NCBI GenBank assembly: GCA_001303245.1 | Contig: LJNS01000002.1 | Span: 2,933-66,932, forward strand | Length of the DNA: 64,000 bases | Reading direction: 5' to 3' | Source of the DNA: Gammaproteobacteria bacterium SG8_30 | GTDB taxonomy: Bacteria > Pseudomonadota > Gammaproteobacteria > Steroidobacterales > Steroidobacteraceae | Shown: in pieces, positions 40,090 to 42,147 of the stretch | Layout: every line of letters starts with the position of its first letter | Numbering within the stretch: position 1 is the stretch's first letter | Notes under the pieces: model-generated | Seen by the model: only the letters and a program-made list of their open reading frames with translations | Database searches by the model: none | What the model was told of the DNA's origin: nothing | Position numbers and translations under genes: made by a program

Positions 40090-41256
40090 ATGCGTCGGTC
40101 CCTCGCCGTCTACGTCCACCTGCCCTGGTGCGTCCGGAAGTGCCCGTACTGCGACTTCAACTCGCACCAGGCACCGGCACGACTGCCGGAAGACGCCTAC
40201 GTCGAGGCCCTGTGCCGGGACCTCGACTGTGACCTGCCGCTCGCAGGAGATCGGGTGGTCTCGAGCGTGTTCTTCGGGGGAGGTACCCCGAGCCTGTTCA
40301 AGTCGGCCTCGATCGCGCGCTTCCTCGCGGAACTTCGCGGGCGTTGCCACGTCGCATCGGACGTAGAGGTCACGCTCGAGGCGAACCCCGGCACGATCGA
40401 GCGGGGACGTTTCGAAGGGTATGCCGAGGCAGGCGTGAACCGTGTATCGCTCGGTGCCCAGAGTTTCTGCGCCTCGGCACTCGAGACGCTGGGCAGGATC
40501 CACGTGCCTGCCGACATCGAGACCGCCGTCGCGGACCTCCGCTCGGCAGGCATCGGCAACTTCAACCTGGACCTCATGTACGGGCTGCCGGGGCAGGGTC
40601 TCGACGCGGCCGTCGCGGACGTGCGTCTCGCCCTGGGGCTGCGTCCCGCCCACCTGTCCCACTACCAGCTGACGCTCGAGGCGGGGACACCCTTCTTCCG
40701 CCAGCCGCCTGAACGGCTGCCGGATGACGACGCGACCCTGGAGATGCAGCTCGCCTGCCAGGAGGTGATCGCCGGCGCCGGTTTCGGCCAGTACGAGGTT
40801 TCGGCCTACGCGCTACCCGGCCGCTCCTGCCGCCACAACCTCGCCTACTGGACCTTCGGGGACTACCTCGGCCTGGGGGCCGGCGCCCATGGCAAGGTGA
40901 CGATGGACGAAGCCGTCCTGCGGACCGAGAGGCTGCGGCGTCCGCGCGAGTACCTGGCCGGGGGCGGCGGATCGCCGGTGACCCGCCGCAGGCGCGTGGA
41001 GCCCGCGGAGCTGCCTTTCGAATATGCGCTCAACGCCCTCCGGCTGACCGGCGGCTTCGAGCTCGGCCACTTCGAGTCCGCGACCGGCCTGCCCCGCACC
41101 GCGTTGTCAGGCCCCCTCGACTCGCTCACCGCCCGCGGCCTGCTCGAGCTCGACGACGAACGGGTCCGTCCCACGTTGCTGGGCTTTCGGTTTCTCAACG
41201 ACGTCCAGCAGGCGTTCCTGCCCGACCCCGAGGCGGGACCCGGGAGAGCCGCTTGA
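40090..41256 (+). CDS. hemW: Radical SAM HemW / oxygen-independent coproporphyrinogen III oxidase-like protein
   Basis: YVHLPWCVRKCPYCDFNSHQ; FFGGGTPSLF; NFNLDLMYGLPGQ. Confidence 0.95.
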   Translation: MRRSLAVYVHLPWCVRKCPYCDFNSHQAPARLPEDAYVEALCRDLDCDLPLAGDRVVSSVFFGGGTPSLFKSASIARFLAELRGRCHVASDVEVTLEANPGTIERGRFEGYAEAGVNRVSLGAQSFCASALETLGRIHVPADIETAVADLRSAGIGNFNLDLMYGLPGQGLDAAVADVRLALGLRPAHLSHYQLTLEAGTPFFRQPPERLPDDDATLEMQLACQEVIAGAGFGQYEVSAYALPGRSCRHNLAYWTFGDYLGLGAGAHGKVTMDEAVLRTERLRRPREYLAGGGGSPVTRRRRVEPAELPFEYALNALRLTGGFELGHFESATGLPRTALSGPLDSLTARGLLELDDERVRPTLLGFRFLNDVQQAFLPDPEAGPGRAA

Positions 41257-41516
41257 ACGGTTACCGGATCGTCGACTGCGATCTGCACGACCTGTACGAG
41301 ATTACGATCCTGCGGCGGCGCCGGCTGTTGCTCAACTGGCTCGACGAGCACGGCCTGGCGCACCTCGAGGTCGTGTGGCCGAACGATCTGGAGACGACGC
41401 CCGACGGAGAGTTCCTTTTGGGTACAGGCAGTTGCGGCCGATCGTTACGAATCAGGCTCGATCGGATCGTCCACGCGCGGGATCCGGTTGCTGGCGAGGA
41501 CTTCACAAAGCCCTGA
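41253..41516 (+). CDS. Rof (Rho-binding antiterminator)-like small protein
   Basis: NGYRIVDCDLHDLYEITILRRRRLLLNWLDEHG...GRSLRIRLDRIVHA; TTG start overlapping hemW stop (TTGA). Confidence 0.6.
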   Translation: MNGYRIVDCDLHDLYEITILRRRRLLLNWLDEHGLAHLEVVWPNDLETTPDGEFLLGTGSCGRSLRIRLDRIVHARDPVAGEDFTKP

Positions 41517-41538
41517 AATCGGTCGGCTCGCAGGGCAG

Positions 41539-41751
41539 TTGTGCACAGCCGGTCGGGACGGGTGATGCGACCGGGACTTTCGTCATATTCTTCCTGCTAT
41601 GCGTTAACTCGATCAGTCTAATTATTTGAAATATCTGGTCAAAATTGGCTGCTCAAATTTTAATCAAAGTGACATTAAGGCGATTTTGCGCGAAGTTCGC
41701 GGGACGGAGCGGACCCTGGTCCACAGAGTTATCCACAGGATTTGTGGATAA
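41539..41751. promoter_or_regulatory. AT-rich region with DnaA-box-like sites; candidate oriC or DnaA-binding locus
   Basis: TTATCCACA (41729-41737) and its inverted copy TGTGGATAA (41743-41751), near-match TGGTCCACA (41717-41725), near-match TTGTGCACA (41539-41547), AT-rich stretch ~41581-41690. Confidence 0.6.
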
Positions 41752-41940
41752 GGGGAAAAGCCTCTCAGTTTCGGTCACTTAGGTCGGCCCGCGGCCGACC
41801 GTATCGTACGCGGCGACGGCCCAAGGGTTGCGGCCTTGCCATGACCGGCGGCCGAGCTTGTAACGAGGATCCGGCCCGGCTAGACTCCCCGGCCCTTTTC
41901 CACACCGATGGGCCATAGAGCTGCCCCGGACGAGACGGCC

Positions 41941-42147
41941 ATGAAGGCGGACATCCACCCCAAGTACCAGGAAATCACCGTCACCTGCACCTGCGGGAAC
42001 TCCTTCCGGACCCGCTCGACGCTCTCCGAGGACCTCCAGATAGAGGTCTGCTCGCAGTGCCACCCGTTCTACACGGGCAAGCAGAAGATCGTCGACACCG
42101 GCGGCCGCGTGGACAAGTTCCGCAAGAAGTACGGCCTGTCCCGCTGA
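41941..42147 (+). CDS. rpmE: 50S ribosomal protein L31 (zinc-binding, C+ form)
   Basis: [28 protein letters not shown]...[31 protein letters not shown]. Confidence 0.97.

Follow-up and report, generated by a model that had tools for sequence, protein, structure and literature searches.

The inverted pair of DnaA boxes found between hemW and rpmE is the core of a regulatory DNA module of about 215 bases, and it is not the replication origin. By analogy with E. coli, we consider it likely that this site forms the core of a DnaA-reactivating element of the DARS2 type, rearranged and close to the origin. The window (the whole 64-kb stretch of DNA analyzed) had previously received a first-pass annotation from its letters, which proposed a chromosomal origin away from dnaA, a secondary origin, or a datA-like or other DnaA-regulatory site at this place. 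The perfect inverted pair of consensus boxes that it described, TTATCCACA-GGATT-TGTGGATAA, is real and occupies 41729-41751, with the two boxes separated by the 5 bp GGATT, and both of the extra boxes that it claimed could be confirmed. The features of the locus are as follows:

40090..41256, plus strand: hemW, radical SAM heme chaperone (Pfam PF04055 and PF06969; synteny), the conserved left neighbor
41253..41516, plus strand: rof-like small ORF of 87 aa, overlapping the end of hemW; its tblastn relatives adjoin hemW in other genomes, and the frame has no Pfam match
41539..41547, plus strand: distal DnaA box, TTGTGCACA, 190 bp upstream of box II
41619..41631, plus strand: predicted IHF-consensus site, TAATTATTTGAAA, one mismatch to TAAnnnnTTGATW, at -110
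41651..41665, plus strand: predicted Fis-consensus site, GCTCAAATTTTAATC, exact match to GnnYAnnnnnTRnnC, at -78
41717..41725, plus strand: core DnaA box III, TGGTCCACA, separated from box II by GAG (3 bp)
41729..41737, plus strand: core DnaA box II, TTATCCACA, letters confirmed in the window and aligned in the hemW loci
41743..41751, minus strand: core DnaA box I, TTATCCACA on the minus strand (reading TGTGGATAA on the plus strand), head-to-head with box II
41941..42147, plus strand: rpmE, ribosomal protein L31 (Pfam PF01197; synteny), the conserved right neighbor

An M48 protease gene comes after rpmE, and Rfam and tRNA scans of the 64-kb window gave no match. The motif TTWTNCACA is matched three times in the window against an expectation of 0.24, a count reached by 0 of 100 shuffles. 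The striking AT-rich stretch of the first-pass annotation proved to be the most AT-rich 90-mer of the window (starting at 41598, 69% AT), and it is explained by the IHF and Fis sites located there. A further consensus-type box, TTTTCCACA, lies at 41896-41904, just 5' of rpmE; at this spot it is unlisted in the loci of other relatives.

The window belongs to a draft assembly of 2.82 Mb in 113 contigs that is 74.6% complete (G000). Across the whole 2.8 Mb, TTATNCACA sites number two, both within the box II/box I pair, and no second copy of the pair was found in the draft even when three mismatches were allowed. The reversed TTATNCACA pattern occurs seven times in this genome compared with two for TTATNCACA itself, which hints at avoidance elsewhere. 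Neither dnaA nor Hda was found in this 74.6%-complete assembly. The sole Pfam match to DnaA, on contig C53 (L003), was rejected as a false match because it is an IstB-like ATPase adjoining an IS21-type transposase; dnaA is therefore unassembled, and the origin tests were done on relatives. The IHF-alpha and Fis genes are present in the assembly, the latter cut by a contig end, and Hda was found in 11 of 11 relatives searched. IHF-alpha, Fis, and Hda are parts that the DARS cycle needs.

The exact pair with a 5-bp spacer is present in 40 of 59 genomes (this one and its relatives), as a single copy in each except G027, which has two, while the reversed-pattern pair was found in none of the same 59. 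When two mismatches were allowed in 20 genomes, nearly all of them without the exact form, the pair was recovered in 17. The boxes are conserved 5' of rpmE, a point that the first-pass annotation had listed for checking: nearly all exact-match loci examined lie downstream of hemW and upstream of rpmE, and one relative without a hemW match at the locus still carries the pair between rdgB and rpmE. Steroidobacteraceae genomes are among the named members with the module at hemW; the named hemW loci of Xanthomonadaceae, Pseudomonas, and Betaproteobacteria have no module there.

We aligned 42 hemW-type loci from relatives, measuring distances from box II and taking the Fis and IHF consensus strings from PMC8682772. 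Four conserved blocks stand at set distances in these loci: the core is at 0, the Fis site at -78, and the IHF site at -110, with a DnaA box farthest out, near -190. All 42 have the core, in which 3 bp separate box III from box II and 5 bp separate box II from the inverted box I, with gaps and orientation kept; the CACA of box III is invariant throughout, and its gap to box II is always 3 bp. An exact Fis consensus occurs in the segment in 31 of the 42 loci, mostly at -78 (shuffles: mean 3.7, maximum 11), and an IHF consensus with at most one mismatch in 27, at a conserved aligned position near -110 (shuffles: mean 2.6, maximum 8). The distal DnaA box lies at -188 to -202 in 41 of the 42 loci and reads TTATGCACA in most relatives. 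Judged from these sequences, the blocks are under strong positional conservation, and the module is distinct from oriC.

To our knowledge, nearly all work on DARS elements has been done in E. coli. Their definition comprises boxes I-III, equally spaced in both DARS, of which box I is oriented against the other two (PMC5742627), and the head-to-head arrangement on boxes I and II is essential, being the basis of ADP release (PMC10380432). DARS1 is 101 bp long and active without IHF or Fis in vitro (PMC5742627), whereas DARS2 additionally needs IHF and Fis (PMC5742627, PMC10380432, PMC4245941); the DARS literature cited describes conservation of DARS2, at similar positions, among close relatives of E. 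coli. In MG1655, the DARS1 core reads TTATCCACT-5-TGTGGATAA-3-TGTGTATTA, and the DARS2 triple beside IBS1-2 has 5-bp and 3-bp gaps, as in DARS1. For DARS2, positions 2452-2486 of the fetched region (L067) were dropped as the core in favor of the triple at 2136 after we checked the separation of the IHF sites, because those flanking the latter are 3 bp apart as in PMC4245941; this assignment is inferred from the text of that paper.

The core of the module conforms to the structural definition of a DARS in its boxes I-III, their orientation, and their spacing, and it is intergenic, between rof-like/hemW and rpmE, and distinct from oriC. With DARS1 (bioD-uvrB) it has in common the core boxes I-III, the same gaps, and strong boxes I and II, but it differs in keeping a conserved 190-bp flank with IHF and Fis sites. 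With DARS2 (rppH-mutH intergenic) it shares the three-box core, its gaps and orientation, and, on the side of box III, consensus sites for IHF and Fis and an additional DnaA box; the sites beside the core of the module are predicted, from consensus matches at set positions well above shuffles. The IHF sites of DARS2 are at -99/-83 and that of the module at -110, and the consensus DnaA box (box V) of DARS2 is at -197 compared with -190 in the module. Such a module, with its DARS-like core, would by analogy work like DARS2.

Several differences from DARS2 are nonetheless apparent. The required Fis sites of DARS2 lie beyond IHF, whereas the module places Fis (-78) between the core and IHF (-110), so that the order is core-Fis-IHF instead of core-IHF-Fis. 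The distal box has the opposite orientation, there is one IHF site rather than two, and the core boxes are nearer to consensus. The gene context is hemW-rpmE or priA, and in this bacterial order the module lies near dnaA rather than mid-replichore, although mid-replichore copies exist elsewhere in the class; in E. coli, moving DARS2 near oriC weakened timing (PMC5742627). A sequence profile of the module scored DARS1 at an E value of 0.03 and DARS2 at about 1, the latter not beyond chance, so homology to both is by geometry only. We count three of these points against the DARS2 reading, namely the Fis/IHF order, the dnaA-proximal position (the E. coli DARS are mid-replichore), and the weak profile score; the absence of dnaA and Hda from the 74.6%-complete assembly also weighs against it.

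A datA-like or titration site, which would sit near the origin and sequester DnaA or promote ATP-DnaA hydrolysis with IHF, thereby restraining initiation, is an unlikely reading, though one with which several observations agree. The module is origin-proximal in this order, at 32-212 kb from dnaA, and datA is closer to the origin than DARS; like the module, datA has DnaA boxes and an IHF site and needs both (PMC5742627). In addition, the string ACAGAGTTATCCACAG, given in the first-pass annotation as the flank of oriC box R4, is indeed present at E. coli oriC box R4, but the datA region that we fetched has it too, and it is therefore not specific to origins. Against this, the fetched datA region has no head-to-head triple with 5- and 3-bp gaps (best match with five mismatches), and minimal datA is described as boxes 2, 3, and 7 plus one IBS only, without a Fis site (PMC5742627). 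Four boxes would titrate little, and copies in the class lie as far as 36% of the genome length from dnaA. Of the datA or DnaA-regulatory alternative offered earlier, the DnaA-binding regulatory part is supported, whereas a datA-like role, although possible, fits worse than a DARS-like one.

The DARS2-type reading is also supported by the recurrence of the layout in unrelated gene contexts across the class and by the presence of two modules in some relatives. Of 369 Gammaproteobacteria genomes, 138 carry the core triple TTATCCACA-N5-TGTGGATAA-N3-TGTG in exact form, and the reversed control is absent from the matches listed. When gaps of 0-14 bp were allowed, exact inward box pairs had a 5-bp gap in 50 of 50 cases (37 of 85 genomes). 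Among 30 class-wide loci, 12 were at priA, 3 at hemW, and 1 beside rpmE, and the remainder were in the vicinity of unrelated genes; not one was near dnaA, dnaN, rpmH, mnmG, or mioC. Most of them show the -190/-110/-78/0 layout, either complete or partial. As an independent test, a profile that was trained on the upstream part of hemW loci and lacked the core gave E < 0.01 at 23 of the 33 loci away from hemW (best 1.9e-12), compared with scores of no more than 3.4 bits for the opposite flank of the core and 1.5 bits for shuffles. Many Gammaproteobacteria have this core a short distance upstream of priA (replication restart), as in L169, L170, L171, L175, L178, and L183, and likewise in L275-L278, L282-L284, L286-L288, L294, and L295. 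We found no paper on DnaA boxes at rpmE/hemN or upstream of priA, or on DARS in Xanthomonas; an earlier listing elsewhere is possible.

Genomes usually carry one or two modules. In chromosomes that are complete or nearly so, these lie 2-36% of the genome length away from dnaA, and paired copies are on opposite replichores in four cases. Some pairs are nearly symmetric about dnaA: G137 (+36/-34% of genome length), G193 (-15/+13%), and G179 (+5.7/-5.7%). G238 and G344, like G098, have three or four core copies, and in the first two genomes just 0.4-0.6 kb separates two of these copies. Two modules each were found in G036 and G051; one copy in G051 is upstream of priA, and the other has the same sequence as the copy that G036 carries between hemW and rpmE.

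Regulation of rpmE, priA, or the hemW operon by DnaA, IHF, and Fis acting at a transcriptional operator would suit the location of the core, which is 190 bp before rpmE in the window and, in many genomes, a short way 5' of priA. We regard this reading as quite improbable, as the identical 190-bp layout is found beside unrelated genes (alpha/beta hydrolase, LptG-like, lon/ppnN, atpC, and proS), which argues that what is conserved is the module and not a target gene.

GC skew drifts flat across the window, without a turn at 41.6 kb; this counts against the origin proposed in the first-pass annotation, which had named a chromosome-wide skew minimum at this point as supporting it. In the complete relative G032, skew is negative from 3.10 Mb through the syntenic site (3.25 Mb) to the contig end; dnaA is at 3.462 Mb, near that end, and skew turns positive about 20 kb past the circular join. 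In G057, skew remains below or close to zero across the site (2.596 Mb) and starts turning just past dnaA (2.686 Mb). In both genomes, then, the skew changes at or next to dnaA and not at the site, and the site-to-dnaA distances are 212 kb in G032 and 90 kb in G057; in a third complete relative, G015, the skew is too weak to be read alone. With these skew data, the bias in gene orientation around the site that had been counted as a sign of divergent replication became moot. The 32-212 kb range comes from seven relatives with both the site and dnaA on one contig, and in three complete genomes of this order the site is 1.9-6.1% of the genome length from dnaA. Separate DnaA boxes flank dnaA in most of the dnaA loci examined. 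The module resembles a gammaproteobacterial oriC in its DnaA boxes, IHF and Fis sites, and AT-rich DNA, but it is off the skew switch and not beside dnaA/mnmG, and it has a DARS-type head-to-head core where oriC has head-to-tail box arrays. An oriC away from dnaA, or a secondary origin, is therefore exceedingly improbable despite these origin-like features, being refuted by the skew in relatives and rejected also on position and on copy number, as an origin is expected once per chromosome and the core occurs twice per chromosome in several genomes and up to four times per genome.

As a DARS2-type element, the module probably helps to set the timing of the start of chromosome replication. Following E. 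coli biochemistry, ADP-DnaA would bind boxes I and II head-to-head, with box III stabilizing the assembly. By bending the DNA on the flank, IHF and Fis would let the assembly open the nucleotide pocket, with release of ADP; the apo-DnaA could then rebind ATP. In this order, where the element lies between the rdgB-hemW operon and rpmE, at 32-212 kb from dnaA, ATP-DnaA would thereby be raised before initiation at a separate oriC adjoining dnaA. The distal box may sense ATP-DnaA and switch the element off, as box V does in DARS2.

We also put forward, tentatively and as a possibility that we rate below an even chance, that this module represents the ancestral and canonical form of DARS in Gammaproteobacteria. 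It would be a 190-bp DnaA/IHF/Fis machine whose layout stayed constant while it moved between intergenic sites (priA, hemW-rpmE, and others), with E. coli DARS1 and DARS2 as diverged descendants, and its single origin-proximal copy in this order would link the recharging of DnaA to early gene dosage.

DnaA boxes in a perfect inverted pair 5 bp apart would be a mark of DARS and not of an origin, which calls for caution in origin prediction. A layout recognizable across the class would make DARS findable by sequence in hundreds of genomes, and questions could be tested about the sites of DnaA recharging, the need for Fis and IHF, and the way in which distance from the origin sets the timing of initiation.
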